Of a DNA stretch of 64,000 nt, positions 20,433-61,747 are shown one piece after another (within the stretch, counting starts at the first letter, position 1; each line of letters begins with the position of its first letter). Below the pieces are notes generated by a model. The model ran no database searches and was not told the origin of the DNA. It saw nothing but the letters and a program-made list of their open reading frames with translations. The translations under genes were made by a program, and so were the position numbers. This DNA comes from Serratia quinivorans (GTDB lineage: Bacteria > Pseudomonadota > Gammaproteobacteria > Enterobacterales > Enterobacteriaceae). The stretch lies in the NCBI GenBank assembly GCA_900457075.1, contig UGYN01000002.1, forward strand, positions 4,774,001 to 4,838,000, given 5' to 3'.

Positions 20433-20455
20433 CCGAATGTTATAATATCACGCCT
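20433..20455. promoter_or_regulatory. Zur operator between znuC and znuA
   Basis: GAATGTTATAATATCACGCC at 20435-20454 matches the E. coli znuA/znuC Zur operator as I remember it and lies at the expected divergent position. Its core AATGTTATAATATCAC (20436-20451) is matched at 14 of 16 positions by a site ahead of the ABC operon at 58 kb. Confidence 0.88.
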
Positions 20456-20484
20456 CGCTGATGAAAACGACGGGATTACTGATA

Positions 20485-21451
20485 ATGGCACAGAAAAATA
20501 AATGGCTGCAGCGTACGTTGCTGGCCAGCGCATTGATGATGGCCGGGCCGCTGAGCAGCACGTCTGCGGCAGTGGTGACTTCTATACGGCCGGTGGGTTT
20601 TATCGCTGCGGCAATAGCCGACGGCGTAACACCGACCGAAGTGCTGTTGCCGGATGGCGCATCACCGCACGATTTCGCGCTGCGGCCTTCCGATATCCAG
20701 CGCCTGCGTGCCGCCGATCTGGTGGTATGGGTGGGGCCGGATATGGAAGCCTTTCTGGCCAAACCCTTAATCTCCATATCGGCTAACCGCCAGGTTGCCA
20801 TCAGTGAATTGAGTGGGGTCAAACCGCTGCTGATGAAGGGTGAAGACGACGATCACGACCATGAACACGACCATGATCATGCAGCAGATACGCATAATAA
20901 TGCTGGAAGTGACGAAGGGGATGGGCACCATCACGGCGAATATAATATGCACGTTTGGCTGTCCCCGGAAGTGGCAAAAGTGACCGCGATCGCGATTCAC
21001 GACAGGTTATTGGAACTTATGCCGCAAAATAAAGACAAATTAGACGCAAACCTGCGCCAGTTCGAGAATCTGCTGACGCAAACTGACAAAAATGTTGGTA
21101 ACATGCTTAAGCCTGTGCAAGGCAAGGGATATTATGTTTTTCATGATGCTTACGGCTACTTTGAGAAACATTTCGGTTTGAGCCCGCTGGGGCCATTTTA
21201 CCGTTAATCCCGAAATCCAGCCTGGGGCACAGCGCTTACACCAAATTCGAACACAGTTGGTTGAGCAGAAAGCAGTATGCGTTTTTGCTGAGCCACAATT
21301 CAGGCCGGCCGTAATCAATGCGGTTGCCAAGGGGACCAAAGTGCGTTCTGGAACGCTGGATCCGCTGGGCACCGGCATCGCACTGGGGAAAGACAGCTAC
21401 GGGAACTTCCTGACTCAGCTGTCAAACCAGTACGTGAGCTGCCTGAAGTAA
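20485..21451 (+). pseudogene. znuA: Zinc ABC transporter periplasmic protein ZnuA, frameshifted
   Basis: Periplasmic zinc-binding protein feeding ZnuBC. It has a signal peptide, the core [29 protein letters not shown], a His/Asp-rich zinc loop ([12 protein letters not shown] near residues 120-131), then MHVWLSPE and FHDAYGYFE. The first frame stops at 21207 after LSPLGPFYR. Dropping one base of GGGGCC (21189-21194) restores [15 protein letters not shown] and joins the remaining third, which ends NQYVSCLK at 21451, for about 321 residues. I favour ATG 20485 over 20461 because the signal peptide fits better. A working zinc importer would need this gene, so a consensus error is the simplest explanation. 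Confidence 0.9.
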
Positions 21452-26594: not shown

Positions 26595-26946
26595 ATAACG
26601 AGAGTCACTCATGGGTTTTGTCGATTTCAATCAAAGGAGAAATCAATGCCGGTTTAGTGAAAATATACTACGTGCTGGTAACCGTTGGCAGTGTCGACAG
26701 AGGGTATGCAGAGTTTTTTCATCAGAACATGACCTGTGTCTAACTTTCATAATGGTAAAAGAGCGTCAAAAAAGACAGAAAATTACAGTTTTTAGTTCAG
26801 TCAGCGGCATTTACTGCCAATAGCGCTTAACACTGCAATTTTTGGGGCTTTTTTTCTACTTTTGATCCGGGTTTACTGGCTGTAGTTAAAGAGAGTACAT
26901 TAGTAATGTAAGAAAATTACAAATATCCTGCAACGAGGAGATGAAC
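26595..26946. other. hexR/zwf divergent regulatory region
   Basis: About 350 bp without a gene. It is AT-rich and contains the HexR operator at 26907-26921 plus a second partial AAATTACA half-site near 26780-26787. It must hold the promoters for both hexR and zwf. Confidence 0.6.
26907..26921. promoter_or_regulatory. HexR operator upstream of zwf
   Basis: TGTAAGAAAATTACA has perfect outer half-sites TGTAA/TTACA of the HexR consensus and lies 26-40 nt before the zwf start, where bound HexR would block transcription. Confidence 0.8.
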
Positions 26947-53201: not shown

Positions 53202-54920
53202 TCAGCCCCGACGGTTGCCGGCGGTATTGGCCAACGTTACTGCGAGCACCGCCAGTAATATCAGAGCGATCGCCGGTGCCAGGACTCCCCACGGCGCCCG
53301 TTCGATATAGGGCATGCCTTCCGCCAGCACCAGCCCCCATTCTGCGCTGGGTGGCTGTGGACCCAGGCCAAGGAAACCCAGGGCGGCCAGCGCCAGCGCA
53401 ATGCCCGGCAGGCGCAGCATGGCATGGCGCAGCAGTGGCCCCCATAAGGCAGGCAGCAGGTAATGCGTCAAGGTGCGCACTCGGCCTATTCCCAACACCG
53501 GCAGCATGCGGATATAGGGTTGAGTGCGGGCTTCCATCAGCAGCGAAGCGCAATGAGCGGCCAGCGGAGCCCAACTAACCAACATCACCGCGCAGGCGGC
53601 GCCGTAGGCTGAAGGGCCGCTAATGGCGACCACTAACAGGCCTGCGATAATCGGCGGTGTGGCGTTGGCCAGCTCAATCATTCCGCACATCAGACGTGGC
53701 ATCAGCCCGAACATTATCCCGAGGAACAGCGAAGCGAAGCTGACCGCCAGTGCCAGCAGGCTGGTATTCAGCGCACCGTAAGCGACGCGCGCCAGGATGT
53801 CCCGACCGGTGGCATCCGCGCCGAAGGGCAGATCGAGGCTGGGCGGCTGGAGGCGAATATGCAGAGACGAAAGTGGATCGCGTATGATCCCGCTCAGCAC
53901 CAACAAGCATAACAACAGCGCGGCAAAGGCGGCGAAAACGTAACTGCCTTTGCCGCTGTGCGGTGGCGGCATCGAATTGGCCAGGCTTGGCGCTACCCGA
54001 CCCAGCAACAGATAATGCGTGCCCTGTGCCAAAAAACCGGTGCTGAAGGCGATCAGCAACAAGATCAGAATTCCGCATTGCAGCGTTGGCAGATCTTGTG
54101 CGATGGCGGCACCTAATGTCGCTCTGCCCAGACCGGGAATGGCGAAGACTTTCTCGACGGCGATGGCGCCGCCGGTAAGCCCAACCAGCACCAAACCGAT
54201 TTGCGGTAACAAGGCGGGTAGCGTGCGGCGCAACACCGCCAGCAGACAATGCCACCGGGAGATACCGGCCAGGCTCCAGGTGATTAACCAGCGTTCGGAT
54301 AAGGTCGCGGCCAAACCGTCACTGAACAACAGGCCCAGCAGGCCGCCGGCAGGTAAACCCAATGCCAGCGCCGGCAGCACCACATGGCGCAAACTTTGCC
54401 AGCCGTAGGGGGGAAACCAGTTTAGCCAGACGGCGCCGAGGATCAGTAACAGCGCGGCCAGGAGAAACTCGGGCAGGGCGGTCAGCGCCACCGCCAACAC
54501 GCCTGCAGAACGGCGGTACTCGCCATGCAGGCCGCGCCAAAGGGTTGGCAGTGCCAGCAACCCTGCGACTAACAGCGCTATCGCCAGCGCGTAGCCCATT
54601 AACGTTAGAGAAACCCCGGTAGCCTGTAACAGCCCCTCCAGTACCGGGCGGCCGGAGATCCAGGAGTGACCAGCGTCGCCATGCAATACCCCATTAAGCC
54701 AGCGGCCAAGCAGCATCAGCGGCCCGTCGTCCAGAGCAAAGCGTTGGCGAATGGCATTCAGGGCTTCGGGCGTCGCTTCCTGTTCGGCCGAGCGAGCTCG
54801 CAGCAGGCTAATTGCCGGGTCGCGACCGGATAGCCAGGGCATCAGACCGATCAGGGATATCATTGCCAACAGGGCAAACAGCCGCGAGGCCAGTGGCAAT
54901 AGCCATTGCGCCAGTCGCAT
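53202..54920 (-). CDS. ABC importer permease, DppB- and DppC-type domains fused
   Basis: A 572-residue inner-membrane protein in which two peptide/nickel-family permeases form one chain. Residues about 1-300 are DppB/NikB-like (the EAA-type loop near LTGGAIAVEKVFAIPGLGRA), and residues about 320-572 are DppC/NikC-like (SLDLPFGADATGRDILARVAYG; ALAALGFLGLGPQPPSAEWG). The join lies around the polar PPPHSGKGS linker. The start overlaps the binding-protein stop, so the genes are coupled. Such importers take up oligopeptides, nickel or metal-chelator complexes; the Zur-like site upstream of the operon favours zinc or a zinc-metallophore. Confidence 0.82.
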   Translation of the reverse strand: MRLAQWLLPLASRLFALLAMISLIGLMPWLSGRDPAISLLRARSAEQEATPEALNAIRQRFALDDGPLMLLGRWLNGVLHGDAGHSWISGRPVLEGLLQATGVSLTLMGYALAIALLVAGLLALPTLWRGLHGEYRRSAGVLAVALTALPEFLLAALLLILGAVWLNWFPPYGWQSLRHVVLPALALGLPAGGLLGLLFSDGLAATLSERWLITWSLAGISRWHCLLAVLRRTLPALLPQIGLVLVGLTGGAIAVEKVFAIPGLGRATLGAAIAQDLPTLQCGILILLLIAFSTGFLAQGTHYLLLGRVAPSLANSMPPPHSGKGSYVFAAFAALLLCLLVLSGIIRDPLSSLHIRLQPPSLDLPFGADATGRDILARVAYGALNTSLLALAVSFASLFLGIMFGLMPRLMCGMIELANATPPIIAGLLVVAISGPSAYGAACAVMLVSWAPLAAHCASLLMEARTQPYIRMLPVLGIGRVRTLTHYLLPALWGPLLRHAMLRLPGIALALAALGFLGLGPQPPSAEWGLVLAEGMPYIERAPWGVLAPAIALILLAVLAVTLANTAGNRRG

Positions 54921-56428
54921 CAGGGCTGTCCGCTGGCGATCATGCTGCGCGGTGTCACCAGTTGGCGTTCTCGCGGATCGCGCTCTGCATTCTTCATGCC
55001 CGCGGCTTCCCCCTGGATCACTCGTTCATGCAGCAGCGGGATCGCGGCATTAGTGGCCATTATGCGGTTTTCCGCCGCCATGATCGCCTGACGCCGCTGT
55101 GCTCCGGCCGCAATAGCAGCAGCCTGAGTTATAGCCGCATCCACCTGCGGGTCGCACAGTTGGGCGATATTGAACGAGCCCTGACAGGCGAAATCGCTGA
55201 ACATATAAGCCAGTGGATCGCCGGAGTCCAACACCGTGGCTCGCGACAGAATAAATGCGTCGAATTTGCCTGCCAGCGCATCGGCCTCAATATGCGCATA
55301 TTCCCGCACTTCCTGTTTCACCTCAAAACCGGCTGCGCCAAGCTGTTGCGCCAGATAAACGGCGACTTCCGGTAGCTCGGCGCGATCGCTGAAGGTGGCC
55401 AGGGTGATGGTTTTATTCGTTACCGTCTGGGTGGGCAGCAAGGGTTGCGGCTGTCTCAATGGGGCGGCCCAGGGCAGTGCCGGGCCAAGCAGCCCGCTGG
55501 CGACATCGGCACGGCCTTCGTAGACATTGTCCACCAGGGGTTGACGCTCAATAGCCGCGGCGGCGGCGGCACGCACCTGCGGATCGCTAAAGACACCTAC
55601 TCGGGTGTTCAGATACAGGGTATTGGTGCGCGGCATCGGCACTTCATGGATGCGTTCTGCCGCAATCAGTGGCAACTGTGATACCGGCACGGCTTCAACC
55701 AGATCGGCACTGCCGGTGCGCAGAGCTGCGGCTCGGGCGGAACCGTCCGGTACAAAACTGACGTCGATACCCGGCGTTGCGGCTTTTTGGCCCCAATAAC
55801 CTTCAAAACGCTTTAGTCGCGCGCTGCTGGTCCCGTTGATTTCCGTCAGCACAAAAGCACCGGTCCCGGCCAGCAATGGGTTAACCACGCCGTTGGCACC
55901 GTAAGCCCGTTCGGCAAGGATCGCCAACTGTGGGCTGGACAGCCGTTGCGGAAGTAAAGGGTCGGGGACCGCGGTGGAAATAATCACGGCGTGATCGCCT
56001 TCAATGCTGACTGATAATTCAATGCCGTCGAGGATACGCGGTTTGGGTGCGGCGTTGATTGCCGCCGAAAGTGAGCGTACGACGCTCTGTGCTGTCATTA
56101 CACTGCCGTCGTGGAAACTGACCCCCGGCCGCAACACAAAGCGCCAGCGGTGTTGATCTATCTGCTGCCATTCGGTGGCCAATGCCGGTTCGGCATCACC
56201 ATTGGCGTTCAGCAGCACCAGCGTTTCGGTATTGCTCCAGCGCGAAAGTTTAAACGCATCATCGCTGAGCGGCGTGAGCCCGGAACGAGGCGGTTGCAAC
56301 ATGGCCAGCCGGATGCGCCGTTCTTCGCCGTTACCGGCTTTCGGTTCGGCAGGGTCAAAACAGCCGCCAAGCAGCAAGCTGCCGGCGAGCAGGCAGCCGG
56401 AGGGGCCAATAAAGCGTGGGTTCAACAT
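54920..56428 (-). CDS. ABC importer substrate-binding lipoprotein (SBP_bac_5 family)
   Basis: A 502-residue family 5 solute-binding protein with a lipoprotein signal ending LGGC (Cys near residue 23), anchoring it in the periplasm. Conserved family features include EPALATEWQQIDQHRWRFVL and LRPGVSFHDGSVMTAQSV near residues 100-125, and IPLLHERV near the end. Ligand is not readable. It lies third in a four-gene operon: ATPase, ATPase, binding protein, fused permease. It overlaps the permease start by one base. Confidence 0.85.
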   Translation of the reverse strand: MLNPRFIGPSGCLLAGSLLLGGCFDPAEPKAGNGEERRIRLAMLQPPRSGLTPLSDDAFKLSRWSNTETLVLLNANGDAEPALATEWQQIDQHRWRFVLRPGVSFHDGSVMTAQSVVRSLSAAINAAPKPRILDGIELSVSIEGDHAVIISTAVPDPLLPQRLSSPQLAILAERAYGANGVVNPLLAGTGAFVLTEINGTSSARLKRFEGYWGQKAATPGIDVSFVPDGSARAAALRTGSADLVEAVPVSQLPLIAAERIHEVPMPRTNTLYLNTRVGVFSDPQVRAAAAAAIERQPLVDNVYEGRADVASGLLGPALPWAAPLRQPQPLLPTQTVTNKTITLATFSDRAELPEVAVYLAQQLGAAGFEVKQEVREYAHIEADALAGKFDAFILSRATVLDSGDPLAYMFSDFACQGSFNIAQLCDPQVDAAITQAAAIAAGAQRRQAIMAAENRIMATNAAIPLLHERVIQGEAAGMKNAERDPRERQLVTPRSMIASGQP

Positions 56429-56446: not shown

Positions 56447-57229
56447 TCAGGGCTGATAAAGGGCGGGTAACGAGGGAATGGCGGCCAGCAGATCGCAGGT
56501 GGCGGCATGTCGCGGGCTGCGCAGCAGTTCATCGGTTGGACGATCTTCCACGATGACGCCGCAGGCCATCACCAGCGTTCGTTGGCATAGGGCGGCGACC
56601 AGTGAAATATCATGGGAGACGAGCAGCATGCCCATATTTTGTTGACGAGTAATCTTGTCCAGCAGGCCGATGATCTGCTGACGCAGTGGCAGATCCAGAC
56701 CGCTGACCGGTTCATCGGCGATTAAAAATCGGGGCTGTAGCGCGATAGCACGCGCCAGCGCCACCCGTTGTGCCTGCCCACCGGAGAGCTGGCCGGGGCG
56801 GGCGTGTATCAGGTGATCATCCAATTCGACCTGCCGCAAGGCCCGCTCAGCGGCAATGCTCAAATCCTGCCTGGGTGCCAGCTGACGCAGAGGTTCAATA
56901 ATCAACTCGGCCACCGTGTGGCGCGGGTTAAGTGAGGCATGGGCATCCTGAGGGACGTATTGCACCAAACGTCGATACCAGCGCAATGGGTTCACAGCGG
57001 TTGGGCGGACGACATTACCCTGGCACAGGATATGGCCGGCATCCGCGGTTTCCAATGCCAGCAACAGCCTGAGCAGCGTCGATTTCCCTGCGCCGGAACA
57101 GCCTACCAGCCCGACGCGTTCCTCCGGATACAGATTCAGGTCGGTGGGTTTCAGTCCGTCAGACTGTGATGAATATCGTCGACAGACTTGCTGCAGGCTG
57201 ATAAAGGGCAGCGTTCCGCTGATTGACAT
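56447..57229 (-). CDS. ABC importer ATPase, DppF/NikE type
   Basis: A 260-residue ATP-binding subunit. Walker A is GCSGAGKST (near 43-51), the signature is [16 protein letters not shown], Walker [13 protein letters not shown], and the switch His is in [10 protein letters not shown] chose ATG 57229 (MSISGTLPF), 9 nt after a GGAG, rather than GTG 57238. It pairs with the other ATPase just upstream to form the motor of the importer. Confidence 0.87.
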
Positions 57230-57242
57230 GCCATTCACTCCG

Positions 57243-58052
57243 TTAACCTGCCAGACTCAACGGCGCTGTCCGCTTGGAGGTTGGGCGCTGCGCTGTGGCA
57301 ACCAATTGCCGGGTATAGGGGTGAGCAGGGTGATGCAGCAATTGTGCGAACGATCCCTGCTCGACTATTTTGCCATCTACCATCACGATGGCGCGCTGAC
57401 ACAGGTTGGCGGCAACGGTGAGATCGTGGGTAATAAACAGCAATGCCGGTGCGTGAGGACGTTCGGTATAAGCTTTCAGGATCTCGATCAGTTGATGTTG
57501 GCTGACCATGTCCAACGCCGTGGTAGGCTCATCGGCGATTAGCAGGCTTTTCTCACCCACCAATGCCAGCGCCGCGCAGACTCGCTGGCATTGTCCGCCA
57601 GACAGTTGGCCAGGATAGCGTGACATGATGATCTCCGGCGGCAAGCCTAATACTGCCAGCAACTCGATGGCGCAACGCTGTGCCCGCTGTTTTTTCATGT
57701 TGTTCTGCCCCTGCAGTGCCAGGATTAGCTGCTGGCCCACGCGGGTCAGGGGATTGAGACTGGTAAAGGGATCCTGAAAGATGGCCGCCAGTGCGGGGCG
57801 TTTGCGCTGTTGCAAATGCCGGCCAGCGAGTTCTTGCCCTTGCAGCCGAATGGAACCATTGACTGTCGCGCCAGTCGGTAGAGTCCCCAAAATGGCGGCG
57901 GCAGTGAGTGATTTACCTGAACCCGATGCACCCAACAGACACAGACGTTCGCCGGCATACAGCGTAAAATTCAAATCGTGAATTTTGACGTCTCCATCAA
58001 GCGACAGCGTCAGGTGTTCTACGGTGAGTAACGGCGAGGGTCGGTTATCCAT
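57243..58052 (-). CDS. ABC importer ATPase, DppD/NikD type
   Basis: A 269-residue ATP-binding subunit. Walker A GASGSGKSLT (near 40-49), signature LSGGQCQRVCAALAL, Walker B LLIADEPTTALD, switch His in FITHDLTVA. I chose ATG 58052 (MDNRPSPLL): the frame extends to 58103, but that extension runs through the Zur-like operator at 58078-58100. First gene of the operon. Confidence 0.88.
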   Translation of the reverse strand: MDNRPSPLLTVEHLTLSLDGDVKIHDLNFTLYAGERLCLLGASGSGKSLTAAAILGTLPTGATVNGSIRLQGQELAGRHLQQRKRPALAAIFQDPFTSLNPLTRVGQQLILALQGQNNMKKQRAQRCAIELLAVLGLPPEIIMSRYPGQLSGGQCQRVCAALALVGEKSLLIADEPTTALDMVSQHQLIEILKAYTERPHAPALLFITHDLTVAANLCQRAIVMVDGKIVEQGSFAQLLHHPAHPYTRQLVATAQRPTSKRTAPLSLAG

Positions 58053-58077
58053 GGCAGATCTTTTTCTTGTGATTCTT

Positions 58078-58100
58078 GTTATGTGATAACATAACATTTG
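58078..58100 (-). promoter_or_regulatory. Zur-like operator upstream of the fused-permease ABC operon
   Basis: Read on the minus strand, AATGTTATGTTATCAC (58083-58098) is identical to the znuA/znuC operator core in this window except for the two central bases. The flanks extend it (leading CA, trailing ATAAC) to 18 of 22 informative positions of the Zur consensus as I recall it. It ends 26 nt before the chosen start of the first ATPase gene, and also faces the small ORFs reading the other way. Confidence 0.7.
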
Positions 58101-58166
58101 CATGCCGGAAATAACCAGCGGATTTACGAAATACTTTGAAATAGTCTAAAACGGGGTAAGCAAGGT

Positions 58167-59382: not shown

Positions 59383-59496
59383 ATTGTTGATTTTCAATCT
59401 ACTTTTCCACAATCAGCCCAAGGTTTTTTGCCGACGGCAAGTTAGTTCGTCTGCTGATAAAAAGTATCCTCATGCTTGTAATTCCTTATCGATAAA

Positions 59497-59515
59497 GATA
59501 ATAATTATCATTAAT
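59497..59515. promoter_or_regulatory. Fur box upstream of foxA
   Basis: GATAATAATTATCATTAAT agrees with 15 of 19 positions of the Fur consensus GATAATGATAATCATTATC and lies about 115 nt before the foxA start. Iron-dependent repression of foxA is expected. Confidence 0.8.
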
Positions 59516-59629: not shown

Positions 59630-61747
59630 ATGCAGATGATTTTTCCTGTCAAACGATCGCGTGTTTTGTGTGCATTCGCGATGTTCCTGCCGTTGACTTC
59701 GTTGGCTGAAGACACCCTGGTGGTTAGCGCCAGGCCCGCTGATACTGCCGAGTCGGTGACTCAGGGCTACCAGGCGACCACCAGTCAGGGGGCGACTAAA
59801 ACCGACCAGCCGCTGATCCTGACAGCGCAATCTGTTTCCGTGGTGACACGCCAACAAATGAGCGATCAGAATACCCAAACGGTCAACGATGCACTGAAAT
59901 ATACCCCGGGCGTTTTCACTAACTTCGCCGGCGGCGCGACACGCTATGACACCATTGCATTACGCGGTTTCCACGGCGGTGATGTCAATAACACCTTCCT
60001 CGACGGCCTGCGCCTGTTAAGTGACGGCGGCACCTATAATGCCTTGCAGGTTGATCCCTGGTTCCTGGAGCGTATCGACGTTATCAAGGGGCCTTCTTCA
60101 GTGATGTATGGGCAAAGCATTCCGGGCGGGCTGGTGGCCTTGACCACCAAGCGCCCGCAGTTTGCCACGCAGGGGCAGGTTAATCTTTCGGCGGGTAATA
60201 ACAACACCCAGGGCGCGGCTTTCGATGTGACCGGTCCTTTGTCGGAGCAGTGGGCTTACCGGCTGACCGGAATGACGCGCAGCAGCGATACCATGTATGA
60301 CCATCAGCGCGAAGAACGCTATGCAATTTCGCCGTCATTGCTGTGGCAACCAGATGAAAATACCTCACTGTTACTGAAAGCTTACCTGCAAAAGGATCCG
60401 TCCGGCGGTTATCACAGTGCAGTACCGGCAGATGGCAGTCTCTATTCCAGCTCGGGTGACAAACTGGGGCGCGGATTTTTTGATGGCGAGAGCAGTCGTA
60501 ACGTCTTCAAACGTTGGGAGCAGATTTACAGCTACGCTTTCTCGCACAGCTTTAATGACGTTTGGTCATTCCGCCAGAATGCCAGCTATACCCATTCTAA
60601 CGTTGAACTGCAGCAGGTTTATCAGATTGGCTGGGATCAGGATCACCAGTTACTGAACCGCTATTACAGCGGCTCGGCAACCTCACTGGATGCATTCGCC
60701 GTCGACAACCAACTGGAGGCCGACTTTGCTACCGGGCCGCTGGATCACAAAGTGATGCTGGGCCTGGATTACCAGCGTTTTCGTAATAACCTGTGGGATG
60801 AATCTGCCGGCGCCTCTCAATTGAACCCTTATACCGGTGTGTCGTGGGGCGCGGGACTGACCAATCTGACGCATACCGATTCCCGACGCCACTATGAACA
60901 GACGGGCGTTTATCTGCAGGATGAAATCAGCCTGCAGAACTGGTATCTGAATCTGTCTGGCCGTTTTGACCGTATAGAGGCAAAAAATACGGTGCTCAAC
61001 ACCGGCACCAGCGATGAACGTCGTGACGACAACTTTAGCGGCCGTGCCTCGTTGCTGTATCGCTTTGACAGCGGTTTCTCACCTTACGCCAGTTACAGCA
61101 CGGCGGTGACGCCGGAAGCGCTGGCCGATCAAAACGGCCATATGCTGAAGCCGAGCACCAGCGAGCAGTACGAGGTGGGCCTGAAATATCAACCGCCGGG
61201 CAGTTCATCAATCTACAGCATGGCCCTGTATGACCTGACGCAGAATGACGTCGCCAATCGGGTGGTGCAGCAAAGTTATTATCTGCCTGCCGGGAAAGTA
61301 CATTCTCAGGGGATTGAACTGGAGGCTCGCAGCAAGTTAACCGAACATCTCGATCTGATAGCAGGCTACACCTACAACAAGGTGAAGTTTAAAGATGCAA
61401 TTGACGGCAACAATGGCAATACGCCGTATCTGGCACCGGAGCAAATGGCTTCGCTGTGGGGCAAATATGCCACTGCCTACGGCGTGGATCTGGGGGCTGG
61501 GGTGCGTTATATCGGCAAGCAGTGGGCGGATAACGAAAATACGCTACGTATTCCTTCCGTGACGCTGGTGGATGCTTCGGTGCGGATGAATCTGGATCGC
61601 GTTAATCCATCGTTGAAAGGGGCATATGTGCAGTTAAACGTGAATAACCTGACCGACCGAAAATACGTCGCGGCCTGTTATGGCACCGGTTATTGCTATT
61701 GGGGGGCAGAACGCTCCGTGCTGGCGACGGTAGGGTACGATTTTTAA
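59630..61747 (+). CDS. foxA: FoxA, TonB-dependent ferrioxamine receptor
   Basis: A 705-residue outer-membrane receptor for ferrioxamine-type hydroxamate siderophores. After the signal peptide (cleavage after SLAE-like site near 27) comes the TonB box DTLVVSA, the plug (TDQPLILTAQSVSVVTRQQM; LQVDPWFLERIDVIKGPSS) and a 22-strand barrel ending in YGTGYCYWGAERSVLATVGYDF, including the terminal aromatic. Long blocks are nearly identical to Yersinia FoxA as I remember it. No siderophore biosynthesis genes are nearby, so it probably takes up a foreign siderophore. Confidence 0.93.
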   Translation: MQMIFPVKRSRVLCAFAMFLPLTSLAEDTLVVSARPADTAESVTQGYQATTSQGATKTDQPLILTAQSVSVVTRQQMSDQNTQTVNDALKYTPGVFTNFAGGATRYDTIALRGFHGGDVNNTFLDGLRLLSDGGTYNALQVDPWFLERIDVIKGPSSVMYGQSIPGGLVALTTKRPQFATQGQVNLSAGNNNTQGAAFDVTGPLSEQWAYRLTGMTRSSDTMYDHQREERYAISPSLLWQPDENTSLLLKAYLQKDPSGGYHSAVPADGSLYSSSGDKLGRGFFDGESSRNVFKRWEQIYSYAFSHSFNDVWSFRQNASYTHSNVELQQVYQIGWDQDHQLLNRYYSGSATSLDAFAVDNQLEADFATGPLDHKVMLGLDYQRFRNNLWDESAGASQLNPYTGVSWGAGLTNLTHTDSRRHYEQTGVYLQDEISLQNWYLNLSGRFDRIEAKNTVLNTGTSDERRDDNFSGRASLLYRFDSGFSPYASYSTAVTPEALADQNGHMLKPSTSEQYEVGLKYQPPGSSSIYSMALYDLTQNDVANRVVQQSYYLPAGKVHSQGIELEARSKLTEHLDLIAGYTYNKVKFKDAIDGNNGNTPYLAPEQMASLWGKYATAYGVDLGAGVRYIGKQWADNENTLRIPSVTLVDASVRMNLDRVNPSLKGAYVQLNVNNLTDRKYVAACYGTGYCYWGAERSVLATVGYDF

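Follow-up and report, generated by a model that had tools for sequence, protein, structure and literature searches.

A peptide/nickel-type ABC importer operon with a Zur-type operator in Serratia quinivorans, a candidate for uptake of chelated zinc

Introduction

Several ABC importers are linked to zinc starvation in bacteria. ZnuABC and ZniABC/AztABC serve under this condition (PMC10797113); they combine ZnuA-type binding proteins with ABC-3 permeases, whereas the operon described here combines an SBP_bac_5 protein with BPD_transp_1 domains. In Paracoccus denitrificans, pden1341-1344 encode a cluster C importer, called "somewhat unusual" and not assigned to a substrate, which is induced 12.6-16-fold in zinc-depleted medium, has a Zur motif upstream, and has a promoter that is bound by Zur in gel shifts (PMC5387054). 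According to the published table, its gene order is binding protein, permease, permease, ATPase (PMC5387054). In the literature covered, mostly titles and abstracts, with subscription papers largely outside its scope, a peptide/nickel-type importer under Zur was met only in Paracoccus (PMC5387054), and the word "peptide" is absent from a review on Zur (PMC6103462).

The operon of Serratia quinivorans resembles pden1341-1344 in that a peptide/nickel-type ABC importer is preceded by a Zur motif (PMC5387054). It lies in a 64-kb window, which is the whole stretch of DNA that was analysed (G000:C2:4774001-4838000), of a 5.88-Mb genome. We interpret it as a Zur-repressed ABC importer, most likely for chelated zinc, and give this reading as a whole a probability of roughly 0.7.

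Organization of the importer operon

The preliminary description of this DNA had named a four-gene importer operon, and its genes can be read directly. They are tightly spaced on the minus strand:

57243..58052, minus strand: ATPase 1, NikD/OppD-like, 269 aa (ORF, profile matches and orthologues)
56447..57238, minus strand: ATPase 2, NikE-like, 263 aa (ORF, profile matches and orthologues)
54920..56428, minus strand: solute-binding protein, SBP_bac_5, 502 aa (ORF, profiles and structure model)
53202..54920, minus strand: fused permease, 572 aa, with a NikB-like half (17-290) and a NikC-like half (342-563) (ORF and profiles)

Transcription would thus run from ATPase 1 through ATPase 2 and the binding protein to the fused permease. 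Base 54920 is common to the last two genes, and sequence reading places a lipobox-like LLGGC at Cys23 of the binding protein, whose closest named relatives, from Serratia quinivorans and S. proteamaculans, are 95% identical. The Pfam matches above cut-off (SBP_bac_5 in the binding protein, two BPD_transp_1 domains and the ABC ATPases) are those of a peptide/nickel-type importer; judged by sequence, the four genes encode such a cluster C ABC importer, import itself being predicted. The start codon of ATPase 1 is the ATG at 58052-58050. A longer ORF, set mechanically, begins at 58103, with the 58078-58100 box within it, but the alignment with six Serratia orthologues (L067-L072) begins at the 58052 start. 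With this ATG, the box ends 25 nt upstream of the ATPase 1 start.

Comparison with known importer families

NCBIfam cut-offs are reached by none of the four proteins, for any family listed. NikABCDE belongs to the same ABC family, and the operon shares with it NikD/NikE-like ATPases, NikB- and NikC-like permease halves and a NikA-like fold of the binding protein. It differs in that the permease halves are fused, in that the operator is of the Zur type and not of the NikR type, and in that the proteins score under the cut-offs (NikA, 91.5 against 393 bits; NikB, 138 against 447; NikC, 108.1 against 358.45; NikD, 212.1 against 318.7; NikE, 190.9 against 332.55). The staphylopine-type CntABCDF system is likewise a peptide-type ABC importer, for metal chelates, and its CntF and CntD models match ATPase 1 at 188 bits, but the Serratia proteins remain far under the Cnt cut-offs (CntA, 38.6 against 800 bits; CntC, 63.1 against 440; CntF, 188.3 against 385; CntD, 188.2 against 380). 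A search of the genome for an opine dehydrogenase gave no match and was equally silent in control genomes, and no gene for the synthesis of a chelator was recognised. Neither of the Pfam models ZnuA and ABC-3 matches any of the operon genes, which match only SBP_bac_5, BPD_transp_1 and ATPase-type models.

A first structure model of the binding protein, from 13 close sequences, was discarded (pLDDT 57). The model used rests on 53 rows (the window sequence, 34 of the 80 family loci described below and 18 distant paralogues) and has a peptide/nickel-type, NikA-like fold. Its best matches among solved structures are nickel or nickel-chelate binders, closely followed by proteins that bind glutathione, dipeptides, sialic acid or opines, so that the fold does not name the substrate. 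Because rows not more than 1 Z unit apart were treated as ties, the structure matches favour no substrate class.

The operator in front of the importer

The preliminary description had noticed that the core of the znu operator recurs on the minus strand at 58083-58098, and AATGTTATnnTATCAC is indeed found exactly at 20436-20451 (plus strand) and at 58083-58098 (minus strand) only, in the whole window. With up to three mismatches, 5 places are found in the window versus 3.35 expected, which is no enrichment, and therefore only the exact matches carry weight; the loose 16-mer matches, being at chance level, were discarded as evidence. A looser form, AATGTTATNNTATNAC, has three exact places genome-wide, namely the cysS/ppiB intergenic region, znu and the importer operon, while at up to two mismatches its 64 matches are about as many as the 57 of a reversed-pattern control.

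In E. coli, two Zur dimers occupy overlapping sites of the motif TGWNAYRWTATAWYRTNWCA (PMC4219657). The following sites were compared with it or scored by a matrix for which eight further candidate Zur sites in the same genome were chosen by pattern and neighbours, with the importer site left out:

58077..58096, minus strand: 20-bp operator TGTTATGTTATCACATAACA, 19/20 to the two-dimer Zur motif (pattern match, motif from PMC4219657)
58078..58100, minus strand: first overlapping 23-bp Zur-type box, top score of the window, 25.19 (eight-site matrix)
58073..58095, plus strand: the other of the two overlapping Zur-type boxes, offset from the first by 5 bp and ranked second in the window with 22.61 (eight-site matrix)
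20434..20456, plus strand: znuA/znuC operator, comparison site (pattern and matrix)

Apart from the 20-bp operator, no sequence in the window comes within one mismatch of the two-dimer motif, to which the znu site has three mismatches. At up to three mismatches the window holds six places versus 1.18 expected, and none of 100 shuffles reaches six. The purine-pyrimidine skeleton of this motif alone is uninformative (297 matches versus 288.63 expected). Scoring with a Zur matrix, which the preliminary description had suggested, places the importer site first in the window, and in about 5.9 million positions of simulated sequence no score is as high (maximum, 20.74). The znu site scores 18.81 when included in the matrix and 14.62 when left out, and since the latter value is below that of an unrelated window position, 26903-26925 (17.45), the matrix separates sites imperfectly. 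The 18-mer that is conserved at the importer promoter is nearly identical to GATATGTTATAACATATC, the Zur box of the Rhodobacter group (PMC2706843).

A pileup of 44 promoters shows TTTGCATCA, 17 bp and then TTATGT within the palindrome, from which the following elements are predicted:

58089..58094, minus strand: predicted -10, TTATGT, inside the palindrome
58112-58117, minus strand: predicted -35, poor in this genome (TGGTTA) but TTGCAT in many of the relatives, with a spacing of 17 bp to the -10

A consensus promoter scanner reported no promoter at the importer operon. The genome encodes Zur (325.7 bits, cut-off 167), which aligns over its full length with 4mtd and keeps the dimer-dimer and base-contact residues given in PMC4219657.

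Conservation of the operon and the operator

Among 149 genomes sampled from the family, the binding protein is found at E 1e-60 or better in 13, the Serratia quinivorans genome included; the sole other genome of the same genus in this sample is without it at this threshold. The four genes are kept in all 12 other genomes that have it. From the 13 orthologous promoters a 19-mer, TGTTATGTTATNACATAWC, was derived, which is exact in 10 of them and has one mismatch in 3; its presence before the importer is partly by construction, because the motif was first read off these promoters.

A scan of 84,980 species genomes yielded 507 confirmed relatives; the comparison uses the best 80 loci among them. 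In 79 of these 80 named loci, the order is ATPase, ATPase, binding protein and fused permease. The 80th, from Streptomyces, is reordered (binding protein, permease, two ATPase-like matches) and was not scored upstream. The carriers among the best 80 of 507 belong to Enterobacterales, Halomonadaceae, Vibrio, alphaproteobacteria and Actinomycetota. A palindrome that is not conserved before orthologous operons had been named beforehand as one observation that would speak against Zur. In Enterobacterales the palindrome is kept: of the 47 loci from this order among the best 80, 40 have the exact 19-mer upstream of the operon, and 43 have it with at most one mismatch. The four deviating loci are those of Citrobacter (two mismatches), Pantoea sp. 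1.19 (four) and two Symbiopectobacterium (three and five). In these two symbionts (L114, L137), the operon is present with broken reading frames and an operator of 3 to 5 mismatches.

The E. coli two-dimer motif is matched at 17/20 or better by 71 of the 79 promoters from the best 80 of 507 loci, versus 0 of 80 control sequences from inside genes and 13 of 790 shuffled ones. Of the eight promoters under 17/20, three are from Halomonadaceae and reach 16, and five are actinobacterial and reach 13-14; the operator is absent from the five actinobacterial promoters scored. An actinobacterial Zur-type pattern, TGAAAATGATTTTCA, is matched upstream of the five actinobacterial copies scored with 3 to 6 mismatches, best in Pseudonocardia, and is not taken as support.

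Of the 502 positions of the binding protein, 215 are conserved in 95% or more of 81 sequences from two phyla, and His106, His467, Cys415 and Cys425 are conserved in at least 79 of the 81. In a tree of these 81 rows, Vibrio falls inside Enterobacterales on a weak branch (94/67), a hint that the Vibrio copy may have been acquired by transfer, and Pseudomonadota and Actinomycetota are one change apart. The importer looks like a separate, very strongly conserved subfamily, with Zur-type operators in most of the proteobacterial copies examined.

The same motif at other zinc-response genes

The exact 19-mer occurs at three places in the genome, i.e., the importer operon, a TonB receptor gene, and folE2-carbonic anhydrase-zigA. 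Copies that deviate from it at two or three positions are found at a single-cysteine dksA paralogue, rpmE2, a second ZnuA-type ABC system, cysS/ppiB, and a gene for a TIGR04028-type binding protein, to which a genome scan with the 16-mer adds a DUF1007-NicO pair. ZnuABC and the second ZnuA-type system both have Zur-type sites; the operon, first described as a second zinc-starvation importer, is therefore still a candidate Zur-controlled importer, but at least the third of the genome and not the second.

In the family sample, the exact 19-mer is present in 30 of 149 genomes, versus 0 for a reversed control. The 29 loci outside the Serratia quinivorans genome (one per genome) include 5 at the importer operon, 21 of a zinc-starvation or metal-uptake type and 3 that are unassigned. 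The 21 are at rpmE2 (6), COG0523 (5), ABC ATPases (4), folE2 (2), zinT (2), a TonB receptor (1) and a siderophore-type binding protein (1); ten neighbour proteins were checked with Pfam, and sequence reading alone gave the names rpmE2 and folE2 and, in four of five cases, COG0523. Class-wide, 5 of 274 genomes have the exact site, again with the Serratia quinivorans genome included. In Vreelandella venusta, GTTATRWYATAAC stands at five places, one of which is the importer operon; the other four, named by sequence reading, are a dksA-like gene with COG0523, two Znu-type systems and a hisI-like gene. The 19/20 match to the two-dimer motif and its presence at known kinds of Zur target support the Zur-like operator and the Zur control that had been proposed at the outset, and the operon is very probably controlled by Zur.

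Relation to the Paracoccus importer

The Serratia operon (ATPase, ATPase, binding protein and one fused permease) differs in gene order from pden1341-1344, genes that were compared by description. The Serratia-type binding protein is present in two of 61 genomes from the Paracoccus genus group, and five have a relative of 31-34% identity, as measured against the copy of locus L145. In 4 of the 5, the Paracoccus Zur-like motif is found in the flank with one or two mismatches, and in the two readable relatives of those four (L220, L224) the next genes encode two separate permeases. The two Paracoccus promoters of the Serratia-type operon deviate from the published Paracoccus Zur motif at 3 positions, and the exact published motif of pden1341 was found in 0 of the 61 genomes. 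From the differing gene order, together with these relatives that have a Zur-like motif and separate permeases, two distinct Zur-linked cluster C importers seem to exist.

Proposed function and alternatives

As a Zur-type operator and the pump are kept together in relatives, the pump is likely to import zinc under shortage. Zinc-loaded Zur would shut the operon, two dimers on the overlapping boxes covering the predicted -10 and blocking RNA polymerase, whereas zinc starvation would open it, the dimers presumably leaving the operator as zinc falls. The membrane-anchored NikA-like protein would then capture the ligand and pass it to the fused permease, with transport driven by the two ATPases. 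A role in zinc uptake is probable; that the zinc is chelated rather than free is favoured by a narrower balance. The ligand is most probably zinc complexed with a small chelator, which would be either of outside origin or made by another locus.

Import of free zinc(II) under Zur, as by ZnuABC, is unlikely. It would agree with the operator, and the four conserved His and Cys residues named above could serve as ligands, but in the structures listed the ligands of family 5 binding proteins are peptides, glutathione, opines or metal chelates, and the operon is without matches to the Znu-type models. It is improbable that a Zur-controlled operon imports instead a helper nutrient that becomes limiting at low zinc, for instance a peptide or an amino acid that binds zinc: the family takes its name from peptides and nickel, and dipeptide and glutathione binders are among the fold neighbours, but the best solved matches bind nickel or nickel chelates, and the ZigA-like or DUF1007-NicO genes that adjoin the operon in 3 of the best 80 of 507 loci point to a metal. 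An ordinary nickel importer, with an operator that is coincidental or belongs to another regulator (NikR, Fur), would explain why similarity-based annotation would name these genes for nickel or peptide transport but is very improbable, as the operator is conserved with the operon across families, the same motif stands at zinc genes, the nickel equivalog cut-offs are missed, NikR-type consensus matches are 13 weak ones in the window versus 15.06 expected with none upstream of the operon, and the only Fur-box-like consensus matches of the window are at 59491-59515, none being at the importer operon. This Fur-box-like sequence is upstream of a FoxA-like TonB receptor gene (59630-61747; 731 bits, under the 1300-bit FoxA cut-off), which adjoins the importer and is outside the operon.

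The Zur-repressed importer of chelated zinc may be placed in a wider and much more tentative picture, in which the operon has spread horizontally among Enterobacterales, Halomonadaceae, alphaproteobacteria and soil Actinomycetota for import of a zinc-chelator complex that the cell does not make itself. It would be under the host's Zur in most of the proteobacteria that have it, and in some lineages an MFS protein encoded in the operon would return the emptied carrier. If true, this would be a zinc counterpart of siderophore piracy. Knowledge of the ligand would show the form in which bacteria associated with soil, plants and salt compete for zinc, and would allow the correction of gene names that at present suggest nickel or peptides.

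Further observations in the genome

The TonB receptor gene with the exact 19-mer is split over three ORFs (L059:1037-3178; G000:C2 about 860536-862677), and a gene for a siderophore-type binding protein follows it. A Zur-type palindrome lies between cysS and a ppiB-like gene (L060:3783). The znuA frame (20486-21451) is broken about three quarters along, with a stop near 21207 and the remainder in another frame, and thus ZnuA is broken in this strain or the assembly contains an error. The gene for the peptide-type binding protein of the TIGR04028 family (L065:2827-4313, over the cut-off) has the 19-mer with two mismatches upstream and is a possible further Zur target. Finally, the genuine sapA gene is divergent to folE2 across one common Zur-type operator (L058:1019-2900), an arrangement read in three genomes (this one, L206 and L207), and therefore the sap operon might also respond to zinc.
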